Assembly (NCBI GenBank): GCA_963169325.1
Contig: CAUJEY010000296.1
Coordinates: forward strand, 1-35,563
Source of the DNA: Bacteroidota bacterium
GTDB lineage: Bacteria > Bacteroidota > Bacteroidia > Chitinophagales > Saprospiraceae
DNA length: 35,563 nucleotides
Direction: 5' to 3'
The translations under genes were made by a program, and so were the position numbers. This document shows, piece after piece, positions 1 through 34,923 of the stretch. The notes beneath the pieces were generated by a model that did not search any database, was not told the origin of the DNA, and saw only the letters and a list, made by a program, of their open reading frames with translations. Every line of letters starts with the position of its first letter. The first letter of the stretch is position 1.

Positions 1-95
1 GGGGTGTTGGGGGTCGGTTTGCGGGGGTCCCCCCCCCCGCCCCCCTTCTCCCGTCCCCCGCCCACCGTCCCCCGTCTACCGTCCACCGTCTTACT
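1..95. repeat. GC-rich word repeat, cut by the window edge
   Basis: A pyrimidine-rich tract follows a G-rich start. It contains a long C run near 31-50 and then repeats of a roughly 7-bp word close to CCGTCTA / CCGTCCA up to the stop of the next gene. G-rich bases at 1-28 could pair with the C-rich stretch. It resembles one arm of the word-built hairpins seen elsewhere in this window, but the other arm may lie outside, so the full form cannot be judged. Confidence 0.5.
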
Positions 96-798
96 AATAA
101 TCCGGTCCTGTCAGTACAAAAGAAGCGGTGGCGCCGAAAAAATAGTACCAGTCGTTGCGTTTGGGGTTCCCGTTTATCGACACGCCGTCGATGTCGTCAG
201 AAAAAACCGGACGGAAACCGCCTTCCAGGCCAAATATGAATCGTTCATAAAAATCGATCCGGATACCTCCGCCGACCGGCGCCAGCAAAAAGGTCGTTTT
301 CAGTCCCTCCTCGGGAAGCGGTGTTTTCAAAAAATCGTCCCGGCGCTCCGGCGGGCCGTAGTATTCGGCGTTCGCGTCGGCAAATGTGACGCCGACGCCG
401 CCAAAGAGATAAGGCGTGATAAAAAAGTTGTGCAATCCTGTTTCGCTGAACCGGTCGCGGCCGAATAAGTGCCATTCCATACAGGTGGCTACCTCGAAAA
501 TTGAAGTACCGAACTTGAAGCTGCGCGGCGCCTTGACGTCAGAGTATTTGTCGTCGCCAGAAATGGAACCGCCGTACACATGCCCTTTAAAAGCAAAATG
601 TTGGCTGACATGGTAGCGGACAAAGGCGCCGTAGCCCGGCCGAAGTTCCTGGAGATCAATTCGTTTGGCGGTGACATCGCCGGAATAACTCGTTACGCCC
701 AGCATTACGCCGGCTTCCCAATATTTGGGTTGGTGGCGCCATTGGGCAGTGGCATGGAGGGAAGAGAGCAGCAAAAAGAATGGGAGGATTTGTTTCAT
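94..798 (-). CDS. Outer-membrane beta-barrel protein, DUF6089-like
   Basis: A 234-residue protein with a clear signal peptide (hydrophobic residues 4-14, cleavage likely after the Ala-Thr-Ala before Gln19). The mature part alternates polar and aromatic or hydrophobic residues, with glycine-rich turns such as GVTSYSGD, YGGSISGDD and YLFGGVGVTF, and it ends in a strand-like segment with terminal Tyr. This is the pattern of small Bacteroidota outer-membrane barrels of the DUF6089 type. The function is unknown; a structural or porin-like role in the outer membrane is inferred. It is transcribed alone, away from the neighbouring reductase gene. The start at 798 is the only ATG that keeps the whole signal peptide. 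Confidence 0.75.
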   Translation of the reverse strand: MKQILPFFLLLSSLHATAQWRHQPKYWEAGVMLGVTSYSGDVTAKRIDLQELRPGYGAFVRYHVSQHFAFKGHVYGGSISGDDKYSDVKAPRSFKFGTSIFEVATCMEWHLFGRDRFSETGLHNFFITPYLFGGVGVTFADANAEYYGPPERRDDFLKTPLPEEGLKTTFLLAPVGGGIRIDFYERFIFGLEGGFRPVFSDDIDGVSINGNPKRNDWYYFFGATASFVLTGPDY

Positions 799-1043
799 GT
801 AACCGGTTTTGATTTATGTTCATGGTATAAAATGAGAAATCTGAACGCAAAATTGTAACACAGACTTTTGTTCAAAGCCTATTTTTTCCAGAAACCGCAG
901 ACCATGAAGCGAAAATGGCCGATCATTTCAATATCCGCCATGGAATCCTGTCTTGCATCGGACAACCGGACATCAACGTGTCGAATCGAAAACGGTGTAG
1001 GGTGAATATCAGTAATTTTTGGAGTGCGGGGGGCAAATGATGG
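799..1043. other. Intergenic gap with no recognised feature
   Basis: The stretch of about 245 bases between the barrel gene and the reductase holds no convincing ORF, hairpin repeat or RNA gene. It must carry the promoter of the barrel gene, but I see no clean TAnnTTTG match there. Confidence 0.4.
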
Positions 1044-2126
1044 CTATGCATCAAAACTCACCACCACTTTTTTGCTCTTCGGGTGCGCCTGGCACGTGAG
1101 CACATAGCCGGCGGCCACTTCTTCCGGCTCCAGCCCGTAGCACAGTTCCATTGCTACTTCGCCATCCAGCACCCTGGCTTTGCAGGTGCTGCACACGCCG
1201 CCCTTGCAGGAAAAAGGCAAATCGGCGCCAGCGCGCATGGCCGCGTCCAGGAGCGTACTGCCATCGGAAGGTAGTGTGAAATCGAATTGCATACCATCCT
1301 GGATGACCGTGATGGAGGCGTCGAAAGTGTCCTTCTGAAGGGTTGTTATTTCCGGATTGACGCGTTGCGGCATTCCGGCCGCGGTAAACAATTCATAATG
1401 CACTTTTTTGGGATCAACGCCCAGTTCTGCCAGGGCGGATTTTACCTCCAAGGTCATGATTTCCGGCCCGCAGAGGAAAAAGGCGTCTACCTCCTGCGGC
1501 TGAAACAACAGGCGGCCGTAGGCGCGGCATTTATCCCCGTCGATGCGGCCGTTGAACAGATCGGCGCCCAGCGATTCGCGGCTCAGTATGTGGTGTACGG
1601 AAAGCCGGTCGGGAAAGCGGTTTTTTAGTTCCTCCAGTTGTTCGCGGAAGATGATCTGATCGAACGCCCGGTTGCCGTAAAATAGGATAAAACGGCTGCC
1701 CGGTTCCTGGTGCAACACACTTTTCAAAATAGCAATCACCGGTGTGATGCCGCTGCCGGCGGTAAAAGCCACGTACAGGTTTTTATTGGCCGGATTCAAT
1801 TCGGTAAAAAAACGGCCCTGCGGCGGCATTACCCGCAGTTCGTCGCCCACGCGCAGGCGTTCGTTGGCAAAGGTGCTGAACACGCCGCCCTGCACTTTTT
1901 TGATGGCTACGCGCAGGTCGTTTTCGTGGGGCGCCGTACACAGGGAGTAGGAGCGGCGTTGGTCCGAGCCGTCTATATTGGTGCGCAGCGTCAAATACTG
2001 GCCCGAGGTAAAATGGAAAAGTTCCTGAAGTTCCTCCGGCACATCGAAGGCCACCGAGATCGTATCGGCCGTTTCGCGACGCAGGTCGCGTACGCGCAGG
2101 GTGTAGAATTTGGTAGTAGCGGACAT
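1044..2126 (-). CDS. PaaE-like ferredoxin-NAD(P)H reductase with 2Fe-2S domain
   Basis: A 360-residue flavoprotein that passes electrons from NAD(P)H through FAD to a plant-type 2Fe-2S cluster. Domains in order: FAD-binding barrel (about 5-110) with the RxYS motif at 58-61; NAD-binding domain with GSGITP at 124-129 and CGPE at 219-222; C-terminal ferredoxin domain with cluster cysteines 307, 312, 315 and 345. The family includes PaaE of phenylacetyl-CoA epoxidase and related hydroxylase reductases. No paaABCD genes are nearby, so the partner is unknown. I chose the ATG at 2126, not the upstream one at 2300: the longer version has no homologous look, runs through a strong terminator (2217-2259) and would start upstream of a good promoter element at 2165-2172. 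The length fits the family. Confidence 0.85.
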   Translation of the reverse strand: MSATTKFYTLRVRDLRRETADTISVAFDVPEELQELFHFTSGQYLTLRTNIDGSDQRRSYSLCTAPHENDLRVAIKKVQGGVFSTFANERLRVGDELRVMPPQGRFFTELNPANKNLYVAFTAGSGITPVIAILKSVLHQEPGSRFILFYGNRAFDQIIFREQLEELKNRFPDRLSVHHILSRESLGADLFNGRIDGDKCRAYGRLLFQPQEVDAFFLCGPEIMTLEVKSALAELGVDPKKVHYELFTAAGMPQRVNPEITTLQKDTFDASITVIQDGMQFDFTLPSDGSTLLDAAMRAGADLPFSCKGGVCSTCKARVLDGEVAMELCYGLEPEEVAAGYVLTCQAHPKSKKVVVSFDA

Positions 2127-2164
2127 AATATTCTGTTGAGCAGCGCCAGGTAAAAAAGGGCCGG

Positions 2165-2172
2165 CAAAGGTA
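2165..2172 (-). promoter_or_regulatory. Bacteroidota -7 element for the PaaE-like gene
   Basis: The minus strand reads TACCTTTG, a perfect TAnnTTTG match, about 40 bases before the ATG at 2126. No clear -33 TTG is seen at the usual distance. Confidence 0.5.
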
Positions 2173-2216
2173 AGAGCATGTTGCTCTAATGCCGGAAATC
2201 CGTCCAAAAAACCAAC

Positions 2217-2259
2217 AAAAAAAGTGAAGACACGAGCCTCGCTCATGCCTTCACTTTTT
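2217..2259 (-). terminator. Intrinsic terminator downstream of rpsT
   Basis: On the minus strand a long stem (AAAAAGTGAAG plus CATGAGC pairing with GCTCGTG plus CTTCACTTTTT, with a 3-base loop GAG) is followed by a T run at 2223-2217. It lies about 70 bases past the rpsT stop and separates rpsT from the reductase gene. Confidence 0.8.
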
Positions 2260-2260
2260 G

Positions 2261-2326
2261 CAAGTTTGAAGTTCAAAGTTTGAACTTCGAGGCTACGCAA
2301 CTTTAAACTTCGAACTTCGAACTTAA
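2261..2326. repeat. Word-built inverted repeat (AAGTTTGAAGTTCGAAG word)
   Basis: The left arm at 2262-2287 and right arm at 2300-2325 are inverted copies with a few mismatches. Each arm is built from a degenerate 7-8 bp word of the AAGTTTG / AAGTTCG type. The loop is about 12 bases. It directly follows the rpsT stop. The same word builds the element at 30932-31001. Confidence 0.75.
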
Positions 2327-2327
2327 A

Positions 2328-2888: not shown

Positions 2889-2892
2889 AACG

Positions 2893-5643
2893 ATGAAGGA
2901 TTTTTCAGCGGTTTTTAACGCGCATCCGCAATATATTGAAACACTCTACCGCTCCTGGCTCGCCGATCCGAACTCCGTGGAGTCCGACTGGAGCCTCTTT
3001 TTTAAAGGATTTGACTTTGCCGTATCCTCAGCAAACGGCGACGGCGCATCTGCTGCCGGCTCGTCCGCAACCGGTGCCTCCGATCTGCTGCGGGAGTTCG
3101 GCGTGCTCGGCCTGATCCATGGCTATCGCGACCGTGGCCATTTCCTTTCCACTACCAACCCGATCAAACCGCGCCGGGACCGCAAACCGAAACTCGACCT
3201 GGCAGACTATGGCCTGAACGATGCCGACCTCGACCGCCCTTTTTCCGCCGGTTATGAAATCGGCCTGCCCAATGCCACGCTACGCGAAATATTGGACCGC
3301 CTGAAAAAACTGTATTGCGGCAATATCGGCTTTGAAAACGCCCATATTCACGACAAGGAACGCCGTTTGTGGCTGCGCGACAAGGTGGAAAACCGCAACC
3401 TGGCGCCCGATTTCGGTTTTTCGCTGGAAAAGAAAAAACGGATTTTACAAAAACTGAACGGCTCCGTTTTGTTCGAACAGTTTTTGCACACCAAATTCGT
3501 CGGACAAAAACGATTCTCGCTCGAAGGCGGTGAAGCTACTATTCCGGCCCTCGACGCCATTATTACTGCGGCCACGGAAAGCGAAATTCCGGTACAGGAA
3601 ATCGTGATCGGTATGGCCCACCGCGGGCGGCTGAACGTGCTGGCCAATTTGTTGGGCAAAACATACGAACAGATATTTACCGAGTTTGAAAGCAAGTCCA
3701 TTCCCGACCTCAGTTTTGGCGACGGCGATGTAAAATATCACCTGGGCTATTCGTCGCAGGTAACCACGCTGCATGGGAAAGAGGTGTACCTGAAACTCCT
3801 GCCCAACCCTTCTCACCTCGAAGCCGTGGACCCCGTGGTGCTGGGATTTGCCCGGGCCAAAGCCGACGCCCTCTACCATTCGGAATACGACCACATTCTG
3901 CCCATTCTGATTCACGGCGATGCCGCACTGGCCGGGCAGGGCATTGTGTACGAAATCATTCAAATGAGCCAGCTGCCAGGCTATTATACCGGCGGCACCC
4001 TGCATTTTGTGATCAACAACCAGATCGGTTTCACCACCGGTTGGGACGAAGGGCGCTCCAGCACCTATTGCACCCAGGTAGCCGAGGTGGTGCAGGCGCC
4101 CGTTTTTCACGTCAATGGTGACGATCCCGAAGCGGTTGTTTTTGCCGTGGAACTGGCTACCGAATATCGCCAAAAGTTCAATTCGGATGTGTTTATCGAC
4201 ATGGTGTGCTACCGCAAATACGGCCACAACGAAAGCGATGAGCCGCGTTTTACCCAGCCGGACCTGTATGCCCTCATCGGCAATCACCGCAACCCGAGAG
4301 AAATTTACAACGATATCCTGATCCAGCGCGGAGAGGTAGACCGCCAGCTGGCCCAGGAAATGGAAACGGCTTTCCGAGCCGATTTGCAGGCCCGCCTCGA
4401 TAACGCCCGGCAAAAACCACTGCCTTATGCTTATCAGGAAACAGAATTAGCCTGGAAAAAACTGAGCTTCTCCACCGATGATGCCGATTTTCAGCAATCG
4501 CCGGAAACCGGTCTGCCGCGCCAGGTCATCGACCGCCTGCTCGATCATTTGCTCAGCCTGCCGAAAGACTTCAGCCCGCTGCCCCAGATCACCAAACTGC
4601 TGGAAGGGCAGCGCAGCCTGGTTCAGGCCGGGCAAATCGACTGGGCGCTCGGCGAACTGATGGCCTACGGCTCGATGCTGCTTGAAGGCAAAGACGTGCG
4701 AATGAGCGGCCAGGACGTAAAACGCGGCACGTTCAGCCACCGGCACTCTTGTCCTGTGGACGCTAAAATATACGAACGGATCAACCGCCTCGACAACCTG
4801 GACCCCAAGCAAGGCCGCTTCCTGATTTATAACTCGCTGCTGTCCGAATACGCCGTACTGGGCTTCGAATACGGCTACGCTTATGCCAACCCCGACGCAT
4901 TGGTGGTGTGGGAAGCGCAATTCGGCGACTTTGTCAACGGCGCCAGCACTATCATCGACCAGTTTATTTTTGCCGGCGAAACCAAGTGGCGGCGTATGAA
5001 CGGCTTGGTGATGCTGCTGCCGCACGGCTACGAAGGCCAAGGGCCCGAGCACTCCTCGGCCCGCCTCGAACGGCACCTGCAGGGCTGTGCCTGGAACAAC
5101 GTGACGGTGGCCAACATTACCTCGGCCAGCAACTTTTTCCACTTGATCCGCCGACAATTGGCGCGCCCGTTCCGCAAACCTTTGATTGTGATGTCGCCCA
5201 AATCCACGCTGCGCCCGCCATACAACCTCGGCCTGATCAGCGAACTGGAAGCCGGCACCCGTTTCCGCGAACTGATCGACGACCCGCAGGCAGAACCGGC
5301 AAAAGTGAAAAAACTGCTGGTTTGCAGTGGCAAAGTGTATTATGACCTGCTCAAGCGCCAGGAAGAAACAAAACGGAAGGATGTCGCAATCGTGCGGCTG
5401 GAGCAAATTTATCCTTTCCCGAAAGTACAATTCGAAGCGCTGCTCAAAAAATATGACAAAGCCAAACTCTTCTGGGTACAGGAGGAGCCGGCCAATATGG
5501 GCGCTTGGGGCCACCTGCTGCTCAACCATATCGAGTATGGCTGGACGCGCGTAAGCCGCCCCGCAACCGCCAGCCCGGCAACGGGATTTCCGAAAAAACA
5601 CGAAAAGGAACAGGCAGAGGTTGTGGAGCAGGCGTTTAGTTAA
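2893..5643 (+). CDS. sucA: 2-oxoglutarate dehydrogenase E1 component
   Basis: A 916-residue thiamine-diphosphate enzyme that decarboxylates 2-oxoglutarate and passes the succinyl group to lipoyl-E2 in the TCA cycle. The N-terminal segment (YIETLYRSWLADP near 14-26) is the short helix typical of SucA/OdhA. The conserved GMAHRGRLNVLAN block lies at about 240-252. The ThDP site is seen as GDAALAGQG (about 342-350) with NNQIGFTT (about 375-382). GHNESDEPRFTQP is near 443-455. The transketolase-like second half includes WEAQFGDFVNGA and LPHGYEGQGPEHSS (about 672-725). The length is close to the usual 920-935. No sucB follows: the next feature is a repeat and a terminator, so E2 must be encoded elsewhere. 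The ATG at 2893 opens directly on the family N-terminus. Confidence 0.97.
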   Translation: MKDFSAVFNAHPQYIETLYRSWLADPNSVESDWSLFFKGFDFAVSSANGDGASAAGSSATGASDLLREFGVLGLIHGYRDRGHFLSTTNPIKPRRDRKPKLDLADYGLNDADLDRPFSAGYEIGLPNATLREILDRLKKLYCGNIGFENAHIHDKERRLWLRDKVENRNLAPDFGFSLEKKKRILQKLNGSVLFEQFLHTKFVGQKRFSLEGGEATIPALDAIITAATESEIPVQEIVIGMAHRGRLNVLANLLGKTYEQIFTEFESKSIPDLSFGDGDVKYHLGYSSQVTTLHGKEVYLKLLPNPSHLEAVDPVVLGFARAKADALYHSEYDHILPILIHGDAALAGQGIVYEIIQMSQLPGYYTGGTLHFVINNQIGFTTGWDEGRSSTYCTQVAEVVQAPVFHVNGDDPEAVVFAVELATEYRQKFNSDVFIDMVCYRKYGHNESDEPRFTQPDLYALIGNHRNPREIYNDILIQRGEVDRQLAQEMETAFRADLQARLDNARQKPLPYAYQETELAWKKLSFSTDDADFQQSPETGLPRQVIDRLLDHLLSLPKDFSPLPQITKLLEGQRSLVQAGQIDWALGELMAYGSMLLEGKDVRMSGQDVKRGTFSHRHSCPVDAKIYERINRLDNLDPKQGRFLIYNSLLSEYAVLGFEYGYAYANPDALVVWEAQFGDFVNGASTIIDQFIFAGETKWRRMNGLVMLLPHGYEGQGPEHSSARLERHLQGCAWNNVTVANITSASNFFHLIRRQLARPFRKPLIVMSPKSTLRPPYNLGLISELEAGTRFRELIDDPQAEPAKVKKLLVCSGKVYYDLLKRQEETKRKDVAIVRLEQIYPFPKVQFEALLKKYDKAKLFWVQEEPANMGAWGHLLLNHIEYGWTRVSRPATASPATGFPKKHEKEQAEVVEQAFS

Positions 5644-5780
5644 ATGTGGTCAATGTTTTAAATGTGGTCAATGAGATCAATGTGTTAAATGTGGTCAATG
5701 AGATCAATGTGTTTCAAATGAGATCAATGTACGCACATTGACCACATTGATCTCATTGACCACATTTAACTCATTTAAAT
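5641..5780. repeat. Word-built inverted repeat (AATGTGGTCAATGAGATC word)
   Basis: The repeat begins at the sucA stop codon. The left arm (about 5641-5731) is a tandem of AATGTGGTC, AATGAGATC and AATGTGTTA variants. The right arm (5735-5780) is the inverse, with a run of about 27 bases exactly complementary to part of the left arm. The arms are unequal, so several registers can pair. The same word forms the element at 19583-19733. Confidence 0.85.
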
Positions 5781-7568: not shown

Positions 7569-7636
7569 ACAGACGGGCGGCTAATAAATCCCATATCCAG
7601 TAAGACCAATCTTCATTGATTTTTCATGCTGCCACT

Positions 7637-7666
7637 GGCCGGGAAACTATTTCCCGGTCTTTTTTT
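7637..7666 (+). terminator. Intrinsic terminator of the XRE operon
   Basis: The stem GGCCGGGAAA / TTTCCCGGTC with a 3-base loop is followed by seven Ts. It lies about 70 bases after the membrane-protein stop. Confidence 0.85.
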
Positions 7667-7719
7667 GAGTGCGAATGTCAGCTCAATAGGTTATTTTCGC
7701 GTTCGATCATAACCCGCAC

Positions 7720-9228
7720 ATGTCCAGCAGCATTCTGTTTACCCATTCTTACTTTTACCGCTTCGACCCGAAGCAATGGAAGGCCCAACAGCCCTACCCA
7801 CCCTACGGCACCATTTATGCCGCCGCGCTGATGCGGGAATGCGGATTCGACGTATCGCTATTCGATACCAACCTGCGGGAAAGTCCCGACGAGATATTAT
7901 CCGAACTGGAAGCGCAAAGGCCTGAATACTTAGTCCTGTACGACGACGGCTTCAACTACCTGACCAAGATGTGCCTCACCAACATGCGCGAAGCCGCATT
8001 CCGCATGGCCAAACTGGGCAAACAACAAGGCTGCACCGTTATCGTCAACAGCAGCGACAGCACCGACCACTATGAAGAATACCTGCGTCAGGGCGCCGAT
8101 TTCGTCGTTCTGGGCGAAGGCGAAATCACCCTTCGCGAACTGATTCTCGCACTCGAATCGGGCGTTACCGATTTCGCGGCCATCCCGGGTGTCGCTTATT
8201 CGATTGCGGATTGCGTATTGCAGATTACGGATTATCCTGAGCCCCGGGGAAAATCCGCAATCCGCAATCCGCAATCCGTAATTCGCACCTCTCCCAGGCC
8301 GGTTTTACACGATCTCGACAGCCTGCCCGACCCTGCCTGGGATCTTGTGGACATAGAAGCCTACCGCGATATCTGGATGCGGCATCACGGCTACTTTTCC
8401 CTGAATTTAGCCACCACCCGCGGCTGCCCCTACAAATGCAACTGGTGCGCCAAACCCATCTACGGCAATCGCTACAACACCCGGAGCCCGGAACGTGTGG
8501 CCGCCGAAATCGAAATGCTCATCGAACGCTACGGGGCCCGGCATTTCTGGATGTCCGATGATATCTTCGGTCTTAAGCCGCGCTGGGTGCAGACTTTCCG
8601 CGATCTGGTGCAGGCCAAAGGGTTAAAATTTAGCTATAAAATACAGAGCCGGGTGGATCTGTTGCTCAAAGAAGACAACATCGACGCGCTGGTGGCCAGC
8701 GGACTGCGGCAGGTATGGGTAGGCGCCGAGAGCGGTTCGCAGAAAATCCTGGATGCCATGGATAAGGGGACTACGGTACAGGAAATCCGGGATGCCACCC
8801 ATCTCCTCAAACAAAAAGGCGTGGAAGTCTGCTTTTTTCTCCAGTTTGGCTACCTGGACGAAACACGGGAAGACATTGAACAAACCATCGCACTGGTGGA
8901 GGAGTTGGTGCCTTATGATATCGGCGTTTCGGTGAGTTACCCCTTGCCCGGTACCGGTTTTTACGAAAAAGTAAAAAACCTGCTGGGCGATAAACAAAAC
9001 TGGAGCCACTCCGATGATTTGGCCGTGATGTACCCTGCTACCTATTCGCCCCAATTTTACCGGCGCCTGCACCGGCTGGTTCATAAACGGTTCCGGTTGC
9101 GGCAGGGCATGCAGGAATTGCGGCGGCTGGCCCACGGCGCCAAAGCGGATCTGCGCCGGGCCTTGCTGACCCTGTATTATGCCCCGGCAGCCATGTTGGA
9201 TACCTGGCGGCTGAAAAGATTGGAATAA
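7720..9228 (+). CDS. B12-binding domain radical SAM protein
   Basis: A 502-residue protein with an N-terminal cobalamin-binding-like Rossmann domain (about 1-155; conserved PPYGTIYAAALMRECGFDVSLFD, shown in part, and GADFVVLGEGE near 125-134). The radical SAM core contains CPYKCNWC (Cys236, 240, 243), the 4Fe-4S/AdoMet motif. A C-terminal tail follows. Members of this class do methyl transfers or ring rearrangements on lipids, cofactors or natural products; the substrate here cannot be told. Residues about 161-190 (VAYSIADCVLQITDYPEP to RNPQSVIRT) are encoded by a palindromic repeat inserted in frame and are unlike the family between GVAY and the next conserved part. The gene stands alone between a terminator and a convergent neighbour. 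The ATG at 7720 gives the usual N-terminus. Confidence 0.88.
   Translation: MSSSILFTHSYFYRFDPKQWKAQQPYPPYGTIYAAALMRECGFDVSLFDTNLRESPDEILSELEAQRPEYLVLYDDGFNYLTKMCLTNMREAAFRMAKLGKQQGCTVIVNSSDSTDHYEEYLRQGADFVVLGEGEITLRELILALESGVTDFAAIPGVAYSIADCVLQITDYPEPRGKSAIRNPQSVIRTSPRPVLHDLDSLPDPAWDLVDIEAYRDIWMRHHGYFSLNLATTRGCPYKCNWCAKPIYGNRYNTRSPERVAAEIEMLIERYGARHFWMSDDIFGLKPRWVQTFRDLVQAKGLKFSYKIQSRVDLLLKEDNIDALVASGLRQVWVGAESGSQKILDAMDKGTTVQEIRDATHLLKQKGVEVCFFLQFGYLDETREDIEQTIALVEELVPYDIGVSVSYPLPGTGFYEKVKNLLGDKQNWSHSDDLAVMYPATYSPQFYRRLHRLVHKRFRLRQGMQELRRLAHGAKADLRRALLTLYYAPAAMLDTWRLKRLE
8202..8287. repeat. Word-built palindrome inserted in frame in the radical SAM gene
   Basis: The left arm (8202-8233) is a tandem of an 8-bp word GATTGCGG with variants (GATTGCGT, ATTGCAG, ATTACGG). 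The right arm (about 8252-8286) is its inverse, AATCCGC repeated, ending AATCCGTAATTCGC. The loop contains CCCCGGGG. Construction and arm length match the intergenic elements of this window, yet this one lies wholly inside a coding region, with the reading frame kept open. Confidence 0.85.
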
Positions 9229-10980: not shown

Positions 10981-11082
10981 GGTCGTGGGGAGGATAACGT
11001 TGCGCCCGAACTAACGCGGCGTTAGCGGTTTTTAATTTTGACTATACACCACAATCTGTAAGAGGGTTAGCGTTTTCCCCAA

Positions 11083-11160
11083 ACCAGAAACCCTCAAACC
11101 AGGAACCATCAAACTTTCCAACCAGGAACCCTCAAACCAGGAACCCTCAAACCAAGAACC
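11083..11160. repeat. One-armed word repeat (AAACCAGGAACCCTC)
   Basis: Five to six degenerate copies of a 15-bp word, AAACCAGGAACCCTC and variants, run up to the stop codon of the large peptidase/barrel gene. I find no matching inverse arm, only AGAGGGTTAG at about 11060. The word belongs to the same family as the elements at 18144, 22105 and 29877. It may be an element that lost one arm. Confidence 0.7.
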
Positions 11161-14100
11161 TTACCACCCCGGCACGATATTCAACCCCCAATACCAGCGG
11201 CGCGCTTCTTTTTTGGCGGAAATGGGATAGGCATAAAACGGCTCGAGTATCAGCGCGCCGAACAGGTTGATCCGTACGGACGCGCCCACGCTTAAGACCG
11301 GTTTATGGATGACGCCGGTGATGGGGGACGGATTTTCCAAATCGCCCGAATTGAAGAAGGCAACTCCGCCATCGGCAAACAGGTTGAAGTCGGTTGGCAG
11401 AAAAAATTTCACCAAACCCAGCGGTTTGGGGCCGAACAACGGCAGCCGCACTTCGGCATTCACCACACCGATTTTACTACCGGCCATTCGATTGAACAGT
11501 TCCGGGTCGTTAGTGTACAGATCATTGGAAGCATAACCGCGAATGAACCAGGAATTGCTAAGAAACAGCGGATATATCTGGTCCGAATTGCCGCCTAAAC
11601 GGCCGTAGCCTAAGGCCCGGAAAGCAAATGTAACAGGCCGTGTCCGGAAATACCGCCTGCCGTCGAGCAGCAGGGTGGTAAAATGATAATCGCCGAAATA
11701 TTGTTCCACGCCGATGCGGTAGCGCCAGCCCTGCAGCGGGGCAGTAAAACCGAAATAGGAGTTGTCGCCTACATAAGCCGCGTTCACGTTGCTCAGGCTA
11801 AGGCTTGAACCGCCAGGTACTCGTCGCCGGTCGGTGCCATACGGGATGTTGGTGCCCCTATAATAATAGGTAGAATATTCGGTAATCCGGGTACTGTAAT
11901 ATTCAAAAGCTGCTCCGATTTCGACCCGTTTGGTGACCGAAAACGGATAAAAGACAAACGCACTGACCCGTTCCTGAAACAGCCGCTCTACCCCGAGCAA
12001 TTCCTCTACAAAAGTATCGACAATGCCAGGACTGTATTCCAGGGGAGTCAGGCGGATGTCGTAGTAAGCCAGCGAACGGTAGGGAATATGGGAAAGCGAA
12101 GCCCCCCAACCGATTCGTTTTTTGTTGTTGATATAAGAAAACTGGCCGGCGGCATCGGATATTTCGCCGTTGAGCGCCAGGCCGGCGTACAGTTGGTTGT
12201 TGCCCAGTATATCGTCGAACAACATATCCACCCCGCCGGCCAGGCCTGTTGCGGCGCCAAAACTGCTGTTTCCCGTGGAAACGCCCACGCCGCCGCCACC
12301 GCCGATATACGAAAGGGAAAAATTCGGTTTGTATTTGGTAGGGGTAAGCGTGGTACTATCCGATACGTCGCGCAGGTTGTTGTCCATCAGTCGCAGGTTG
12401 GTGTTCACCACGTCGCGCCGGCGCGGGTCGAAGGGCGGCAGGGTGGCAGGCACTTTATCCACCTGATAAGCGTCCACCTCGGTCAGGTTAAAATCGGCGG
12501 CTTTGGCCTGGTGGATTTCATAATTGCCTTTGTTATAGTACGTGTACAGGATGCGATCGCGGTCGCCCGATACGGCGATGGCCGGCGCGTAGGGCGTGAT
12601 GCCGGTAATACCGGTTTGAAGATCGGTGGCCTGAAACACCTTTTTCGCCGTCCGGTCATAATAATACAGGTTGCGGAAGCCGTCGCGGTTGCTCAAAAAA
12701 TAAAGGTTTCCTGCCGCGTCGAACTGGGGGTTCATGTTATCGGCGCCGGGAAACAGGTCGAGTTGTTCCGTTTCGCCGGTGGTCATGTCCCGGATGGCGA
12801 GGTTCATCGTCCAGACGCCGTTGCTGCGACCGCGCTGGAGGCTGATTTCGTCGGTAGCGAAGGCTAAGTAACGTCCGTCGGCGCTCCAGGCCGGAAGGAT
12901 TTCGGCGGCCTTGTCGTTGGTGAGCCGGGTTACTTTTTTTGTTTTCAAGTTATACGAGTACAAGTCTGTCTGGCCGTTCACCAGGCCGCTCACTACGATG
13001 GTTTTGCCATCGGGGCTCCACACCGGGTTGTTGAATTCCGGCACTTCTTTCATTCGAATACGCTCGAGGGTTTTTCCTTTAAAGACGTCTTTGATAATCA
13101 GCGTACTGCGTCCCTGTTCATATACATCGAAGGCAAATCGTTTTTCATCGGGCGCCCAAGTGCCGGCGCTTTCGATAAAGTCGAACTGATCTATATGCCC
13201 GTCCTGGGCTGCGCTGGCTACTTTTTTAATAATCTTCCCGGTGCGGGCATCGGCCAGGTACAGGTCGAGGGAAAACAGATTTTTTTCAGACAGGAATATC
13301 AGGTATTTACCGTTTTGGCTGATGGCCGGACTGATGTTCATCGACCCGAAGTTGTCCTCGGAAAGCAGCCGTTTGCCAGGCAAATCTTCTTTTTTCCCTT
13401 TAATTACCCAGCGGCCGTAGTGATTTTTCAGCGCATCCGTCCAGGCAGTGGCTAAGGAATCGGGCGTAGTGCCGAGCGTGAGGCGTATAGCTGGGTCGAG
13501 GCCGTATTTGGCGGTGTTCATAAACAGCGGCCGGATAACCTCGTCGCCATACACGCCGGTTACAAAGGCCCAGAACGACTGCCCCCAGCGGTAGGGGAAA
13601 TATTTGCCGCTGTCCAGATCGCGGAGTTTTTTGGGCAGTTCCTGGTTTTTCACCGCATCGCGCATCCAAAGAGCTGTATGGGCATCTACCCGGCCGATGG
13701 AGAGGTATTCAGCCAGTCCCTCCACCATCCAGAGGGGCAGATTGGCGATGTTCTGGAGCCGGGTGGAGTCGCCGTTAATGACCATGTGATATTGAAAGGC
13801 ATGTACGAGTTCGTGGCCCAGCACATGGTCGGTTTGCTGGTTGGTCATCGCCACGGGGAAGATCACGCGGTTGCGCAGCCCCTCTGTCACGCCGCCAGTG
13901 CCCACGCTGATATCGCCCATGATGGCATTGGTTTGCTGAAAGCCGGCGTGGTCGCTGTAGATCAGCAAGGGATTTTTTTCGGTAAATGTATCCTGAAGCG
14001 CCGCTTGGTGCATTTGATACCAGAGTTCGGCGGTCGCAGCGAGTTCTTTTAGTTTTTCAGGATTGTTCAGGTATTCATAGATGGTGAAATGTTCCGTTTC

Positions 14101-14248: not shown

Positions 14249-14345
14249 ATGGTGTTTTAGTGTTTTTGTGCTTCAGTGTTTTAGTAGGGATCTCGTTTGG
14301 ACAAAAACACTAAAACACCGAGGCACAAAAACACCCAAACACCAT
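14249..14345. repeat. Word-built inverted repeat (GTGTTTTAGTGTTTTTGTG word)
   Basis: The left arm (14249-14286) and right arm (14308-14344) are inverse copies with few mismatches, each made of GTGTTTTA / GTGTTTTTGTG units. The central loop is about 20 bases. It lies upstream of both the minus-strand peptidase gene and the plus-strand UbiA-like gene, so here the element sits between divergent starts and not between gene ends. Confidence 0.8.
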
Positions 14346-17180: not shown

Positions 17181-17425
17181 ACCAGTCGTCATGGAGTGCC
17201 ATTGTTCGTCATTAAAATCGTCATTGTTCGTCATTGTTCGTCATTGTTCGTCATTGTTCGTCATTGTTCGTCATTGTTCGTCATTGTTCGTCATTGTTCG
17301 TCATTGTTCGTCATTAAAATCGTCATTCGTCATTACTCGTCATTAAAATCGTCATTGGGCCATTAATTCAACCGTAATCTCTAATGACCTAATGACGAGC
17401 AATGACGAATGACGATTTTAATGAC
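17181..17425. repeat. Word-built inverted repeat with nine exact 10-bp tandem copies
   Basis: The core is nine exact copies of TCATTGTTCG (17221-17310). It is flanked by TCATTAAAATCG and TCATTACTCG variants to about 17352. The right arm (about 17383-17424) is the inverse of the 17310-17352 part, so only the edge of the array can form the hairpin; the tandem copies extend outside it. No spacers separate the copies, so it is not a CRISPR array. It fills the gap between two divergent genes together with their promoters. Confidence 0.9.
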
Positions 17426-17531
17426 TAATAGTATTATCGTTACTTTTAGGGCCGCTTTCGTCGGAAACGGGCAACGAAAAATACGACGCGGGCGTTTTAT
17501 ACCAGCGTCTCATTCAAATCGTTTATTGACC

Positions 17532-18143: not shown

Positions 18144-18290
18144 AGGGTTAGAAGGTTACTGGTTTGAGGGTTACTGGTTTGAAAGTTAGAGGGTTACTGG
18201 TTGCCATGTGCGAACCAGTAACCCTCTAACTTTCAAACCAGTAACCCTCTAACTTTCAAACCAGTAACCCTCAAACCTTCAAACCCCTTT
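18144..18290. repeat. Word-built inverted repeat with 37-bp perfect arms (GGGTTACTGGTTTGA word)
   Basis: The inner arms (18166-18202 and 18213-18249) are perfect inverses of 37 bases around the loop GCCATGTGCG. Outer copies of the same words extend on both sides. It sits between the DUF4294 and clpX stops, and the right side ends in a short T run, so it likely serves as terminator for both. Confidence 0.92.
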
Positions 18291-19582: not shown

Positions 19583-19733
19583 TAAATGTGGTCAATGAGA
19601 TTAATGTGGTTAATGAGATCAATGTGGTCAATGTGGTCAATGTGGTCAATGTGGTTAATGTGATTAACGATTGACCTCATTGATCTCATTTAAAACACAT
19701 TGACCACATTAATCACATTGACCACATTAAAAA
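19583..19733. repeat. Word-built inverted repeat (AATGTGGTCAATGAGATC word, second copy)
   Basis: The left arm (about 19583-19668) is a tandem of AATGTGGTC, AATGAGATC and AATGTGGTT. The right arm (about 19670-19730) is the inverse. It fills the clpP-clpX gap up to the clpP stop. The word is the same as at 5641-5780, 14 kb away, though the order of the variants differs. Confidence 0.88.
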
Positions 19734-20635: not shown

Positions 20636-22054
20636 TCATTCCTCTACTGTTTCCCGTATTGTCGCATCTTCTACCTGCTCCTGTTCGGCCTTTTTAGTGA
20701 TGGCGTCGAGGGTTTGATGGAAGGTTTCGGAGGTAACGGGGTTGTCTTTCAACGTAACCATGGAGCGGATGGCCTGGAACAACTTGTCCGTTTCCAGATC
20801 GCCGCGCGTTTTGTCCACTTCTTTTTCATCCTGCATCAGCCGGTCCACGCTGCTGCTGATGATATGTTCAGGCAGATCAGCCTGGAAATACTGGCGCACT
20901 TTATTGGCGTATTCTTCCCGCAACTCCTCGGGGGTTACCTCGATAGCAAACTGTTCTTTCATCCGGTCGCGCAGCAGCGACCAGCGCAGGTTGTCGGCAA
21001 AGGCCGGGTATTCTGTCTCAATTTGTTCCGGTTGCAGGCCCTCGTTATTCATGCTCAGCCAGCGTTTCAGGAAGGTGTCCGGCAGTTCGAAGCGGTTCAT
21101 CTCCATCAGCCGGGTTTGGAATTCGCGCATGAGCAGGGCGTTGGCGCGCACTTCGTAAAAACGCTCGATGCCTTTTTTTAACTCCTCAATGGCTTCTTCC
21201 CTGTTTTTTACCTGCCCGCCGAAATAGTCGTTAAAAAACGCTTCGTCCAACTCGGCGATTCCCACACGCGACACCTCTACGATCCGGCCTTCAAACCAGG
21301 GGCCCACCGCGCGGTCATCGTCTTCCGGCAGGTTGAGCAGGTATTTGCGGTATTTTTCGTCTGCTGCATGGTTTTCCAGCATCCGATAGTCGAACCGGAT
21401 GCTATCGCCTTGTTTTTTGGTTAAAAATTCATTTTTCAAGGCCTCATCGGTGATATTGGCCACATGAATAGTCACGGTGGTTTCCCAACCACCTGCCTTG
21501 GCTTGGTCGCCGTCGAGTTCGGCGGCCTCTATTTTCACGATGTCGTTTTCAAGGATGTTATCTTCAACGTTTCTGGGTTTGCCCATCCGTTTGCGGGCAT
21601 GTTCGAGGTCGTCCTCGGCCAATTGGTCGAGGTTGGAAATGGTCAAACGGTCGAAAGTCTGGCTGTTGTCCAAGCCCAGAATTTCAAATTCCGGGACGAA
21701 CCCTACCTCATACGCAATCGCGTATTCATTTTCCAGGTCGTCAATTTTGAAGGAATACCGGGGTTGATCCTCCACCGGCAGGGGCTGGCCCAATACGTTA
21801 AGTTTGCTGTCGCGGAGATAATCGTACAGTTCTTTCGACAACATATCATTCAAAATATCGCCGAACATACTGGCGCCGTACATCCGTTTGATGTACTCCA
21901 TCGGCGCTTGTCCTTGCCGGAAACCTTTAATGGCGGCACGGCTGCGAAATTTCTTCAGTTCGGCATTAATCTTCGGCTTGAGATCATCCTTGGTGAGGGT
22001 TACGGTGATGATCGCAGAAGTGTTATCGAGGTCTTTGCGTTGTACGTATGGCAT
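20636..22054 (-). CDS. tig: Trigger factor, ribosome-bound chaperone
   Basis: A 472-residue protein. The N-terminal ribosome-binding domain carries the signature GFRQGQAPMEYIKRMYG, with the GFRxG loop at 44-48 that docks near the exit tunnel. The middle region (about 155-260), which is the FKBP-like PPIase in E. coli, is recognisable in position but divergent, so isomerase activity is uncertain. The long helical C-terminal domain (about 270-450) forms the chaperone arms. I placed the start at 22054 (MPYVQRKDLD), because the reading frame further upstream runs through a hairpin repeat and the tRNA-Leu gene. It heads the conserved order tig-clpP-clpX. Confidence 0.93.
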   Translation of the reverse strand: MPYVQRKDLDNTSAIITVTLTKDDLKPKINAELKKFRSRAAIKGFRQGQAPMEYIKRMYGASMFGDILNDMLSKELYDYLRDSKLNVLGQPLPVEDQPRYSFKIDDLENEYAIAYEVGFVPEFEILGLDNSQTFDRLTISNLDQLAEDDLEHARKRMGKPRNVEDNILENDIVKIEAAELDGDQAKAGGWETTVTIHVANITDEALKNEFLTKKQGDSIRFDYRMLENHAADEKYRKYLLNLPEDDDRAVGPWFEGRIVEVSRVGIAELDEAFFNDYFGGQVKNREEAIEELKKGIERFYEVRANALLMREFQTRLMEMNRFELPDTFLKRWLSMNNEGLQPEQIETEYPAFADNLRWSLLRDRMKEQFAIEVTPEELREEYANKVRQYFQADLPEHIISSSVDRLMQDEKEVDKTRGDLETDKLFQAIRSMVTLKDNPVTSETFHQTLDAITKKAEQEQVEDATIRETVEE

Positions 22055-22104
22055 GATTTTCGAAAGTGAAACGGCAAGAATAGTAATTGGATAAATGGTT
22101 GAAT

Positions 22105-22182
22105 GGTTTCTGGTTAGAAGGTTAGAGGGTTTCTGGTTCCCATGTGCTAACCAGAAACCCTCTAACCTTCTAACCAGAAACC
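22105..22182. repeat. Word-built inverted repeat with 34-bp perfect arms (GGTTTCTGGTTAGAAGG word)
   Basis: The arms 22105-22138 and 22149-22182 are perfect inverses of 34 bases around the loop CCCATGTGCT. The words (GGTTTCTGGTTA, GAAGGTTAGAGGG) are close to those at 18144-18290 and 29877-29942. It lies between the tRNA-Leu gene and tig and could terminate the tRNA transcript. Confidence 0.95.
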
Positions 22183-22202
22183 AGTAAATTTTACCAAAGA
22201 AG

Positions 22203-22284
22203 TGCGGGCGGAGGGACTCGAACCCCCATGCCTCACGGCGCCAGATCCTAAGTCTGGTACGTCTACCAATTTCGCCACGCCCGC
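22203..22284 (-). tRNA. tRNA-Leu (anticodon TAG)
   Basis: The minus strand folds as a class II tRNA. The acceptor stem GCGGGCG pairs with CGCCCGC. The D-arm contains AAATTGGTAGAC. The anticodon stem CCAGA / TCTGG has the loop CTTAGGA, so the anticodon is TAG (reads CUA, CUG by wobble). A long variable arm (GCGCCGTGAGGCAT) is typical of Leu. The T-arm is GGGTTCGAGTCCC, and A follows as discriminator. CCA is not encoded; the next bases are CTT. It has its own promoter element upstream. Confidence 0.95.
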
Positions 22285-29361: not shown

Positions 29362-29877
29362 ATGGCTATATCAAAACCGTTCAATCTCCAAAAATGGATC
29401 GAAGAAAACCGCCACCTGCTTCAACCACCGGTGGGCAACAAACAAATTTATGTCGGAAATAACGATTTTATCGTGATGATCGTCGGCGGGCCAAACGGCC
29501 GCAAGGATTACCACTGGGAAGACGGCGAGGAACTGTTTTACCAACTGGAAGGTGATATCCAGGTCAAAATCATCAACGAAGACGGCAAACCTGAAACGAT
29601 TGATATCCGTGAGGGCGAAATGTTCCTGTTGCCGCCCCGGATACCGCACTCCCCGCAGCGCCCGGCCAACACCGTGGGCCTCGTACTGGAGCGTACGCGC
29701 CATGAAGGCGAGATCGACAAACTGATGTGGTTTTGTGAAAACTGCGGTGAAAAATTGTACGAAGCCGGGTTCCCGCTCAAGGATATTGGGACACAGATCA
29801 AAGCGGCTATTCAGGCGTACAAAGAGGATCAGGCCGCGCGCACCTGTAAACATTGTGGTACGGTGATGGAACTATAG
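29362..29877 (+). CDS. nbaC: 3-hydroxyanthranilate 3,4-dioxygenase
   Basis: A 171-residue cupin that opens the ring of 3-hydroxyanthranilate in tryptophan degradation or quinolinate synthesis. The catalytic iron ligands are visible as His51 (DYHWEDGEELFY), Glu57 and His96 (RIPHSPQRP). The C-terminal second metal site has Cys125, Cys128, Cys162 and Cys165 (CENC, CKHC), the rubredoxin-like site of bacterial forms. The length is normal. It follows the EamA gene by 12 bases. No other kynurenine-pathway gene is in this window. A truncated copy of its start lies at 28207. Confidence 0.94.
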   Translation: MAISKPFNLQKWIEENRHLLQPPVGNKQIYVGNNDFIVMIVGGPNGRKDYHWEDGEELFYQLEGDIQVKIINEDGKPETIDIREGEMFLLPPRIPHSPQRPANTVGLVLERTRHEGEIDKLMWFCENCGEKLYEAGFPLKDIGTQIKAAIQAYKEDQAARTCKHCGTVMEL

Positions 29878-29942
29878 GTTAGAGGGTTTCTGGTTAGAAG
29901 GTTTCTGGTTGCGTGTAACACTAACCAGAAACCTTCTAACCC
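29877..29942. repeat. Word-built inverted repeat (GGTTTCTGGTTAGAAGG word)
   Basis: The inner left arm 29892-29910 pairs exactly with 29923-29941; the outer left arm (GGTTAGAGGGTTTCT) has no partner. The loop is GCGTGTAACACT. It starts at the HAO stop codon and ends at the rsgA stop. The word is shared with 22105-22182. Confidence 0.88.
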
Positions 29943-30926: not shown

Positions 30927-30931
30927 ATGTA

Positions 30932-31001
30932 GAGTTTGAAGTTTGAAGTTCGAAGTTTGAAGTCGCGTGACTTCGAACTTCAAACTTCGAACTTCAAACT
31001 C
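30932..31001. repeat. Word-built inverted repeat (GAGTTTGAAGTTCGAAG word)
   Basis: Arms of 33 bases (30932-30964 and 30969-31001) are inverse with few mismatches, around a 4-base loop GCGT. The word is the same 7-8 bp type as at 2261-2326. It lies between the yceI stop and the rsgA start, overlapping the rsgA promoter region. Confidence 0.92.
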
Positions 31002-31038
31002 CTAAACCCAAAATATGCGTCGCCGGTTCCCAATATTC

Positions 31039-31614
31039 TTAAGCAACCGCTTCCAGCACTTCCGCCGTAGCCGCTACGGGCTGCACTTTGGCGTACTGTA
31101 CGTTGGCCTGAATTTTCACTTCATCGGCTACCACGGCGCCGCCGGCTTCCGTCAGGGCGTTCCATTTCAGGTCAAATTCTTTGCGGCTGATCTTGCCGGT
31201 CACTTCAAATCCGGCCTTGGTGTTTCCGTAAGGGTCTACGGCAATACCGCCGAGTTCGACGTGCAGGGAAATGGGTTTCGTTATGTCGCGAATGGTCAGG
31301 TGACCATCCAATTGAAATTCATCCGCACTTAAGGCCTTAATACCGGTCGATTTAAACCGCAGTTCAGGATATTTTTCCGCATTGAAAAAATCATCGCTGT
31401 GCAAATGGTTATCGCGCATTTCCACGCCCGTATCGATAGAGGCAGCCTCCACCGTAAATTCGATTTCCGCCGTTTTAAAATCGCCGCTTTCATCGGTCGT
31501 TACGGTAGAAGAAAACTTTTTAAATTGTCCGGTTACGGTGGACACCATCAGGTGCCGGACACGAAATTGTACTTCGGAGTGTGCGGGGTCGAGTTGCCAG
31601 CTGAGCTTTGCCAT
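31039..31614 (-). CDS. YceI-family protein
   Basis: A 191-residue protein of the YceI/lipocalin-like family, which binds polyisoprenoid or amphiphilic ligands. Start MAKLSWQLDPAHSEVQFRVRHLMVSTV (given in part) is the family N-terminus. Further conserved parts are VEAASIDTGVEMRDNHLHSDDFFNAEKYPELRFKST, in part, and LDGHLTIRDITKPISLHVELGG, in part. No signal peptide is present, so it is probably cytoplasmic. I use the ATG at 31614; the open frame to 31644 adds ten residues without conservation. It ends in a Val/Ala-rich tail that looks variable. It lies upstream of rsgA on the same strand with a repeat between. Confidence 0.93.
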   Translation of the reverse strand: MAKLSWQLDPAHSEVQFRVRHLMVSTVTGQFKKFSSTVTTDESGDFKTAEIEFTVEAASIDTGVEMRDNHLHSDDFFNAEKYPELRFKSTGIKALSADEFQLDGHLTIRDITKPISLHVELGGIAVDPYGNTKAGFEVTGKISRKEFDLKWNALTEAGGAVVADEVKIQANVQYAKVQPVAATAEVLEAVA

Positions 31615-33806: not shown

Positions 33807-33888
33807 GAGAATTATAACTTAATGAAATGAGCGATCCATTCCGGAAATTCTGGATAATTTGCAGGCCATTTTCAAAAAAACATCTTCC

Positions 33889-34860
33889 ATGAAATACCGC
33901 AGATTTGGCCGCACCAACTTCCATTCCTCCGAAATCGGCTACGGCATGTGGGGCTTAGCCGGCTGGACCGACACCGACGCCGGGGAGGTAGCCCATGCAC
34001 TCGACCGCGCCGTAGAACTCGGCTGCAATTTTTTCGATACCGCCTGGGGCTACGGCCGCGGTAAAAGCGAACAAATTCTGGGCGATTTGGTAAAAAAACA
34101 CCCCGGCAAAGAATTTTATGTCGCTACCAAAATCCCGCCCAAAAACTTCAAATGGCCTTCCAAACCGGACTACCGCTTCGAGGATTGTTTCCCGGCCGAC
34201 CATATTATCGAATACACTGAAAAAAGCCTGCGCAACCTCGGGGTGGACTGCATCGACCTGCAACAATTCCATGTCTGGGAAGACGCCTGGGCCGACCGCG
34301 ACGAGTGGAAAGCAGCCCTTGAAAAACTGAAAAAAGAAGGCAAAGTGCGGCACTTCGGCGTCAGCATCAACCGCTGGGAGCCCGAAAACGCACTGAATAC
34401 CATCCGTACAGGTATGATCGACGCCGTGCAAGTGATCTACAACATCTTCGACCAGGCGCCGGAAGATGCCTTGTTTCCGCTTTGCCGCGAACTCGACATT
34501 GCCGTCATCGCCCGTGTGCCCTTCGACGAAGGCTCTCTAACGGGAAATCTTACCAAGGATACCGTTTTCCCGCCCGGCGACTGGCGCGGCACCTACTTCG
34601 TGCCCGAAAACCTGAACGCCAGTGTGGACCACGCTGACGCGCTGCGGCCACTCCTCCCCGCAGGAATGACCATGCCCGAAATGGCACTGCGCTTCATCCT
34701 TAGCAACGACGACGTACATACCATTATTCCCGGCATGCGACGGGTGCGGCACGTGGAGGCTAATATTGCTGCCAGCGATGGGCGGGGTTTGCCGGAGGCG
34801 CTGCGCTTGGCGTTGAAGGGACATCGGTGGGATCGGGAGCCTACTTCCTGGTCGCAGTAA
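33889..34860 (+). CDS. Aldo/keto reductase family protein
   Basis: A 323-residue NADP-dependent oxidoreductase-like protein with the (beta/alpha)8 barrel. The catalytic tetrad is intact: Asp50 and Tyr55 (NFFDTAWGYG), Lys81 (ATKIPP) and His128 (QQFHVW). C-terminal IPGMRRVRHVEANIAA is the usual cofactor-contacting part. The start at 33889 (MKYRRFGRTN) matches the family; the open frame from 33859 begins at a TTG with no conservation. The substrate is unknown. It is convergent with aspS, and the shared hairpin includes both stop codons. Confidence 0.93.
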   Translation: MKYRRFGRTNFHSSEIGYGMWGLAGWTDTDAGEVAHALDRAVELGCNFFDTAWGYGRGKSEQILGDLVKKHPGKEFYVATKIPPKNFKWPSKPDYRFEDCFPADHIIEYTEKSLRNLGVDCIDLQQFHVWEDAWADRDEWKAALEKLKKEGKVRHFGVSINRWEPENALNTIRTGMIDAVQVIYNIFDQAPEDALFPLCRELDIAVIARVPFDEGSLTGNLTKDTVFPPGDWRGTYFVPENLNASVDHADALRPLLPAGMTMPEMALRFILSNDDVHTIIPGMRRVRHVEANIAASDGRGLPEALRLALKGHRWDREPTSWSQ

Positions 34861-34923
34861 CGCGAACTGTTAGTTCGCGTGGAAAAGATTTTAATTTTCA
34901 CGCGAACTAACAGTTCGCGTTAC
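34857..34923. repeat. Perfect inverted repeat spanning two stop codons
   Basis: Arms of 25 bases (34857-34881 and 34899-34923) are exact inverses. Each arm contains its own inner palindrome CGCGAACT / AGTTCGCG. The TAA stops of the plus-strand reductase (34858-34860) and minus-strand aspS (34922-34920) are part of the arms. The loop is GAAAAGATTTTAATTTT, giving a T run in both directions, so it likely terminates both genes. Confidence 0.93.

Follow-up and report, generated by a model that had tools for sequence, protein, structure and literature searches.

Many gaps between genes in a 35,563-nucleotide stretch of Saprospiraceae DNA (the window; positions 1-35563 of contig C296 in the 8.07-Mb, 349-contig assembly G000) are occupied by long hairpins whose arms are tandem arrays of short words. 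On a modest balance of probability we propose that they are word hairpins that evolve rapidly within a Saprospiraceae genus, share one architecture and a life history of slippage and copying, and come in two kinds: kind A, carried in miniature inverted-repeat transposable elements (MITEs), and kind B, array hairpins that seem to change in place. Their words are shared within genomes, the same gap holds different words in different species, MITE insertions are seen as filled and empty sites, a close pair of genomes differs in arm length at one gap and in the orientation of a loop at another, and the hairpins are biased in location. Throughout, G000 is the source genome, other G numbers are the genomes compared with it, and L numbers are the sequence stretches analysed; the relatives searched were 42 genomes of the genus, G000 counted among them.

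Occurrence and sharing of the words

An inverted-repeat detector with fixed settings (arm at least 20, score at least 18, loop at most 100) found 10 inverted repeats in the window and none in 20 dinucleotide-preserving shuffles. In a genome sample of 353,423 bases, a non-random draw made up of the window and at most the first 20 kb of each tenth contig from C1 to C190, it found 57, against none in one shuffle per piece. These shuffles rule out a chance origin and answer a doubt raised in the initial annotation of the window, namely that such repeats might be no commoner than in shuffled DNA. Nine of the ten two-armed sites listed there were recovered; the remaining one, at 2261, is imperfect and lies under the threshold, while that at 34857 proved to be an ordinary hairpin. 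The tenth detected repeat, at 8203-8282, was missing from that list, and the two one-armed arrays that it placed at 1 and 11083 are real, at about 27-90 and 11080-11160. Most of the ten detected repeats have arms built from tandem words of 7-10 bp; arm periodicity is clear in seven (z at least 4.9), and 17200-17356 and 29877-29910 were also detected as tandem repeats. Rfam at the gathering score returned a tRNA as the sole match in the window and nothing for the hairpins, on which basis a known Rfam RNA family was rejected. An assembly artefact is unlikely because the pattern recurs across many separate assemblies, including G007 and G009 with nine and seven contigs respectively; word arrays show no surplus at contig starts (2/30 starts against 35/900 random 60-mers).

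The G000 sample holds 154.7 inverted repeats per Mb, 56.7 per Mb with clearly periodic arms. The corresponding densities are 40 and 5 in G007 and 37.5 and 7.5 in G009 (400 kb each), 114.8 and 54.9 in other members of the genus (200 kb), 11.6 and 0 in other Bacteroidota (258 kb), and 14.4 and 2.9 in other phyla (1.04 Mb), where the last two sets and most of the sequences from other genus members were taken around ClpX and are not random samples.

We observed that the words are a property of the genome rather than of the locus. Within the window, GGTT followed by TCT, ACT, AGAA or AGAG is common to the sites at 11080, 18144, 22097 and 29877, AATGTGGTC to those at 5641 and 19585, and AAGTTTG to those at 2262 and 30932. 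Across G000 the GGTT pattern GGTTNCTGGTTNGANGGTT has 430 matches, against 0 for the reversed-pattern control. Elsewhere it is found in G009 (149), G020 (125), G050 (70), G024 (5), G007 (3) and G022 (2), hence in 7/42 genomes of the genus with 0 matches in the remaining 35; the word sets are therefore patchy and not strictly private to one species. Among 142 hairpins from nine genomes, an exact 11-mer is shared between arms in 99/3505 pairs within a genome and 20/6106 between genomes (5/400 for the close pair G007/G009), with shuffled arms giving 5 within and 4 between. Of 79 sampled G000 hairpins, 50 have an exact 11-mer in common with at least one other from G000, and 12 with a hairpin of another genome. 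The matches of GGTTNCTGGTTNGANGGTT and the sharing of 11-mers led us to reject the earlier suggestion that each locus has a word of its own. A further recurrent class of long hairpin in G000, reading CCCCACCCCCATCCCCTCCCC...GGGGAGGGGATGGGG, occurs in L115, L120, L125 and L175, and another reads GTCATCCCGCAGGAACCGTC. Separately, in two species hairpins of unrelated word classes carry a GTAGAGTGYACC-like motif at the inner end, which looks as though the loop held a nested second element (L120 11771, L126 4249 and 7594 and L178 19316 in G000; several sites in L168 of G046).

Comparison of corresponding gaps revealed different words at the same place in different species. The clpP-clpX gap could be read in 23 genomes of the genus and holds word hairpins in four, each with its own words: AATGTGGTC in G000, GGTTTCTGGTTAGAAGG in G020, AAGTCCTGAGTC in G046 and GACATAAGACC in G012. 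In G022 it carries one-armed GGTTATT arrays next to an ordinary hairpin, and in the other 18 genomes other sequence, several having an ordinary stem with a T-run and some gaps being only a few bases long. The nearest named relative returned by the ClpX comparison, the Saprospiraceae metagenome-assembled genome (MAG) L002/JAEUUV010000201.1 (83% identity), appears to be G020, since the clpP-clpX gap is identical in both. The gap between the trigger-factor-like gene (tig) and tRNA-Leu, readable in seven genomes, holds three different word hairpins in G000, G020 and G022; in G050 it is very short with no hairpin, and in G040, G047 and G008 it has other sequence. The words in these two gaps were judged by eye, as were the inverted loop, the ccoNO-like gap, the untagged G007/G009 arrays and the G009 element at 259440 that are described below. 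We propose that gain and loss are fast enough to leave different words at the same gap within one genus.

A coding region is affected too. In the radical SAM/B12-binding gene at 7720-9228, a loop ahead of the conserved RPVLHDLDSLPDP motif holds in-frame words in 6/22 aligned sequences of the genus. G000, G050 and G022 have related, two-armed GGATT words, G052 has GGACGTT and G041 AATCATC, while the STVHRPP residues of G053 point to a CCACCGTCC-like word. This one variable loop is a hot spot of in-frame word arrays with species-dependent words (window 8203-8282; L391, L392, L408, L409 and L411).

The elements of the window, to which no strand is assigned, are as follows (strands are those of the genes).

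27..90: one-armed CCACCGTCC-type word array at the contig start, adjoining gene 94-798 (-) at its stop
2262..2324: imperfect hairpin of AAGTTTG/AACTTCG words, 3 bp past the stop of the ribosomal protein S20 gene (2328-2582, -)
5639..5779: AATGTGGTC/AATGAGATC word hairpin overlapping the stop codon of the 2-oxoglutarate dehydrogenase E1 gene (2893-5643, +)
8203..8282: ATTGCGG-type word hairpin within the radical SAM/B12-binding gene (7720-9228, +)
11080..11160: one-armed AACCAGGAACCCTCA word array that runs up to the stop of gene 11161-14217 (-)
14249..14345: GTGTTTTA word hairpin in the divergent gap between 11161-14217 (-) and 14483 (+)
17200..17428: CATTGTTCGT/CGTCATT word array in a divergent gap; inverted arm of 36-39 bp
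18144..18285: GGTTACTGGTTTGAGG word hairpin with perfect 42-bp arms, filling the convergent gap between the DUF4294 gene and clpX
19585..19730: AATGTGGTC word hairpin in the clpP-clpX gap, 3 bp past the clpP stop
22097..22188: GGTTTCTGGTTAGAAGG word hairpin between tRNA-Leu (22202-22284, -) and the trigger-factor-like gene (20636-22054, -)
29877..29941: GGTTAGAGGGTTTCTGG word hairpin where a 3-hydroxyanthranilate dioxygenase-like gene and rsgA converge, beginning at the stop codon of the former
30932..31005: AAGTTTG/AAGTTCG word hairpin flanked by rsgA (-) and a YceI-like gene (31039-31614, -)
34856..34924: ordinary hairpin, 97% complementary, covering two convergent stop codons

The last of these stands outside the word class because it has no tandem words (periodicity z 0.8), and the hairpin at 2262..2324 was recognised from its tandem words. 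As the array at 27..90 sits at the contig start, its second arm may lie beyond the contig; another contig start (L116:1-100) has a two-armed hairpin of the same word. The hairpin at 8203..8282 is in frame, at about residues 162-187, and is missing in 16/22 aligned sequences of the genus. The array at 17200..17428 lies between gene 16060-17139 (-) and the DUF4294 gene, called from 17526 (+); an open reading frame start at 17409 would overlap it.

Hairpins within MITEs and hairpins that change in place

In G000 the CACATAG hairpin (67 and 62 matches for its two arms, control 0; 36 loci with six perfect words) often lies inside an element of 114-123 bp with CACACTACTGGACATTTT terminal inverted repeats. 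We parsed 18 such elements from 30 loci of 48 matches, the rest being duplicates or having no second end. A direct repeat of 8-10 bp borders nine of the 18 and one of 6 bp borders another, counted with small offsets allowed and with no shuffled control. At least three CACATAG words are present in 15/18, a different hairpin lies between the same ends in 2/18, and among 17 loci read the flanks of some CACATAG copies are quite unlike these. Comparable elements in G007 and G009 number 11, with one insertion present in both and thus counted twice; they have GTAAAAACTTAGG terminal inverted repeats (GTAAAA-type) and a target duplication matching at 8/8 positions in 5/11 and at 7/8 in 4/11. Their cores contain ACAGG words, GGTNGA words (up to 19 and 30 in the two halves) or neither. 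The GTAAAA ends with an 8-bp duplication are reminiscent of IS66.

G007 and G009 are 94-97% identical in most aligned blocks. When the G009 elements were compared with G007, four of nine sites examined were clean filled/empty pairs, as was one more site; of the other five, two have unclear borders, two show other changes and one is a hairpin swap. All eight size differences tagged with GTAAAAACTTAGG ends are longer in G009. Among the G009 elements, one GTAAAA-type example is 647 bp long, with 19 and 30 words in its halves, a 7/8 duplication and a short site in G007; it is a single case. A different element, at G009 259440, combines ends resembling the G000 family's with CACAAAG/CGCAAAG words. 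This element, together with the different hairpins between the same ends, indicates that ends and words are exchangeable. Kind A thus consists, as observed in G000 and G009, of MITEs with a hairpin core of two or three short words per arm and target duplications of 8-9 bp.

Kind B comprises array hairpins that begin at stop codons and fill gaps and have neither terminal repeats nor target duplications. No common ends were seen in the GGTT, AGTT and AATG arrays, the classes of the window (15, 6 and 3 loci). Flanking direct and inverted repeats are at chance level in the 15 GGTT loci (direct repeats in 1/15 against 0.93 expected) and the 6 AGTT loci, and there are none in the 3 AATG loci. The terminal inverted repeats and target-site duplication by which a MITE is recognised are thus missing from the array classes of the window.

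The clearest change in place lies in a gap whose upstream gene ends in ...QADK and whose downstream gene begins with MYKYILE, a ccoNO/ccoQ-like pair by resemblance. In G007 a plain hairpin, GGTTTGAGGGCTTGCCCGGCCAAGCCCTCAAAC, directly follows the stop with one word per arm. In G009 the start and the GGCTTGCCTGGCCAAGC loop edge are the same, but the arms measure 181 and 196 bp and consist of GGTTTGAGG/GGTTTCTGG words, counted as 25 and 26, and the loop holds an insertion. At another gap GGGTTGATGA arrays surround a loop that is inverted between the two genomes, and an insert of about 200 bp interrupts it in G009. At two further places (G007 121271 against G009, and G009 79420 against G007) one genome carries a word hairpin whose ends are GGCCGTCTCA-like and the other a plain hairpin, with the outermost stem bases kept. 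Overall, 305 kb of the pair contain 50 collinear size differences of at least 30 bp, of which 27 are untagged and 23 tagged: 8 GTAAAA-type, 2 GGCCGTCTCA-type, 10 TATACCCAGATT-type and 6 word arrays, three being combined.

Some smaller observations touch the same loci. An element of about 160-200 bp with TATACCCAGATTAAAG at one end breaks word-hairpin loops at several places (L142-L151 and L194-L203 on contig C3 of G009; contig C1 of G007), and an element of about 100 bp beginning with TACTTCGCGCCG recurs in the additional sequence of G007. In L126, two nearby copies of one word hairpin (4249-4359 and 7594-7694) differ, as judged by eye, by a C.G to A.T change on both arms; their loops are oppositely oriented, and another position differs on a single arm.

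Position, arm evolution and competing explanations

Two-armed GGTT arrays lie at a median of 4 bp past the stop codon, and within 15 bp in eight of the nine loci with a 3' neighbour; for CACATAG elements the median is 30.5 bp, with 8/22 within 15 bp. Of 56 hairpins, 30 lie within 30 bp of a stop. Convergent gaps hold 23/65 intergenic hairpins with 12.6% of the intergenic bases (P 2e-6), divergent gaps 9/65 with 26.9% (P 0.009); for periodic hairpins alone the counts are 11/30 (P 7e-4) and 4/30 (P 0.06). Of gaps of at least 80 bp, a hairpin is present in 19/28 convergent, 27/112 codirectional and 8/45 divergent ones. Genes were called with a simple in-house caller that is blind to tRNAs, and of the six hairpins scored as coding some may reflect wrong gene calls. 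The bias in location fits either two-way transcription barriers or plain tolerance.

The behaviour of the two arms differs between classes. In CACATAG the words are fixed and the 2-nt spacers are independent between arms (7/36 identical against 4.65 expected, P 0.17; the 36 hairpins were chosen for perfect words). In GGTT, a locus's own arms share longer strings than do the arms of other loci (17.9 against 13.2 nt, P 0.002; 15 entries, with locus L368 entered twice), though for just 5/15 the best match is the other arm of the same locus. AGTT shows no own-arm excess (13.6 against 16.2 nt, P 0.98; 5 loci); the AATG and GTCATT tests, at three loci each, are uninformative. On this basis a general joint correction of arms was rejected, and slippage within each arm with occasional copying between arms fits better than strict joint correction.

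These results bear on three further suggestions of the initial annotation. That the arms stay complementary while the words drift is true of the words and not of the CACATAG spacers; and a process that writes or corrects both arms gains from the G007/G009 difference in arm length, the inverted loop and the locus-specific GGTT strings, while the shared words, the independent CACATAG and AGTT arms and the unequal arms count against it, so that slippage with copying would be its more fitting form. The hairpins do often begin at stop codons, as stated there, and as possible terminators they have the position without the usual marks of an RNA terminator. Finally, the refutation proposed there, that they are copies of one known transposable element family, does not hold for the window's arrays, though the CACATAG class of the same genome does ride in a MITE.

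We posit the following life history. An ordinary hairpin, whether a terminator or a MITE, would serve as a seed. Replication slippage would multiply a stem word on both arms, letting these grow or shrink, and template switching on the hairpin would copy arm to arm, such that parts stay matched and the loop can flip. MITE transposition would spread some word classes, array words would reach new loci, and the elements would persist where they are least harmful, or as two-way transcription barriers, after stops and above all in convergent gaps. Under this account the arrays of the ccoNO/ccoQ-like gap would have grown in G009 rather than collapsed in G007.

Several points weigh against this account. 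The ccoNO/ccoQ-like gap is a single case with no outgroup, so that growth and collapse are indistinguishable there. CACATAG and AGTT, two of the three classes tested at five or more loci, have independent arms; arm lengths are often unequal, and in 14/25 GGTT elements just one run reaches four words. Slippage acting independently leaves the spacer variants common to many loci unaccounted for, and no means of spreading was found for the arrays. As to a barrier role, the transcribed strand of 33 codirectional loci has 22 A.C against 13 G.U mismatches (P 0.18), thus no G.U excess, and there is no U-tract: T makes up 24.5% of the 10 nt after the hairpin at those loci and 32% at convergent ones, against 28.8% in all gaps. 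CACATAG MITEs are likewise frequent in convergent gaps (11/26), and the bias in location may therefore be plain tolerance; moreover, the divergent count includes the hairpin at 22104, entered as such because the caller ignores tRNAs.

Other explanations were weighed against the same evidence. It is somewhat unlikely, in our estimation, that kind B reflects a genome-wide, non-transpositional writing, in which gap hairpins would swap words by ectopic template switching at stalled hairpins, or a word-reading protein would maintain them; a species' set would then drift to shared words, and orthologous gaps would be rewritten and still be hairpins. We are similarly doubtful that all the hairpins are MITE copies or remains, the window's arrays having lost their ends. 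CACATAG and GACAGG hairpins do lie inside MITEs with target duplications, and the 647-bp element carries 19 and 30 words in its halves; yet the arrays have no common ends and no flanking repeats beyond chance, they hug the stop codon far more often than CACATAG elements do, and at the ccoNO/ccoQ-like gap the two genomes differ in place. We consider it unlikely that the hairpins are intrinsic terminators working in both directions and maintained through selection on RNA structure, with the words incidental. Their starts at stop codons, the convergent excess and the ordinary stem and T-run that several relatives have between clpP and clpX favour it, but of the features of a rho-independent terminator they show the position and not the U-tract, divergent and coding copies occur, and the shared words stay unexplained; selection on RNA structure was rejected for want of a G.U excess.

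The words might instead be sites read by a DNA- or RNA-binding protein with a specificity that shifts between lineages; this would account for constant CACATAG words around a 2-nt spacer that is free and unlike between arms, and for the C.C..AG frame that recurs with other letters in other genera and phyla. We regard this as improbable: the number and spacing of array words vary, and perfect words were demanded by the search pattern, though at least 100/129 arm matches had no mismatch when two were allowed. REP/REPIN sequences have short stems linked to RAYT, a Y1 transposase, and a REP/REPIN-like origin would suit short, high-copy, intergenic palindromic repeats in a genome with three Y1_Tnp matches. 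It is nevertheless extremely improbable here, as the arms are tandem words and none of the probes CACATAG, GGTTTCTGG, AATGTGGTC and AAGTTTGAAG matched around the three Y1_Tnp genes (L344 has a word hairpin of another class); the link was rejected on the latter ground.

Relation to known systems and wider reach

In eukaryotic foldback transposons (FB, TU and Galileo-type) a central part is flanked by long inverted arms consisting of tandem short repeats; the 647-bp G009 element, a single case, resembles them in form. Palindromic elements of Rickettsia are inserted in frame within coding genes, likewise a resemblance of form. The BrickBuilt MITE of Porphyromonas gingivalis (PMC4596501) is likewise an intergenic, multi-copy element of Bacteroidota with internal tandem repeats and predicted long stem-loops. 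It is one family with one 23-nt repeat, whereas here words of 7-10 bp stand on both arms, many per genome, with exchangeable cores, species-specific word sets and arrays that have no MITE ends. The multicopy nucleotide sequences of Geobacter bemidjiensis, G. metallireducens and Pelobacter carbinolicus (PMC2996986, PMC2700814, PMC3543383) are based on palindromes or direct repeats (6-42 nt) and occupy many gaps; one family also occurs in genes with no frameshift, and some consist of four heptanucleotide repeats. These were compared by description, not sequence, and the passages available contain no analysis of arms, filled and empty sites or word turnover. REP/REPIN and GTAG/CGTC palindromes (PMC3733652, PMC3116915) are interspersed and of high copy, as here, but are not word arrays. 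According to a study of yeast coding DNA (PMC8604942), template switching on imperfect inverted repeats homogenises arms and inverts the spacer (loop), outcomes resembling those that we read from pairs of sequences. In the open-access literature, as represented mostly by titles and the opening lines of abstracts, there was no account of word turnover or of two-arm word arrays in bacteria, and no paper printing any of six word strings was found.

The C.C..AG grammar, in the form of three words in one arm facing two in its partner, was found in 3/198 genomes of the phylum, G000 among them, and a looser form (three words, then one) in 5 of the 45 genomes from which other loci came, with the reversed-pattern control giving 0 in all; carriers of the looser form include a Rhodocyclales MAG and another betaproteobacterial MAG. 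CACRGAG words were found in at least 120 stretches of IMG/VR, an environmental viral collection, and in 80 loci of these, 45/128 sites lie within an inverted repeat. On IMG/VR contig L222 (3336-3483) a CACGAAAAG-type word hairpin sits within the loop of a CACRGAG word hairpin. The presence of the grammar in a few other genera and phyla and of its words in the viral collection suggests that the process may be widespread.

The word hairpins join three topics that are usually kept separate, namely bacterial MITEs, minisatellites and hairpin-templated mutation. Since a pair of genomes about 95% identical holds different hairpin states at the same place, the growth, symmetry and spread of palindromes in bacteria become testable, and these elements may reveal how hairpin DNA gets rewritten in nature.

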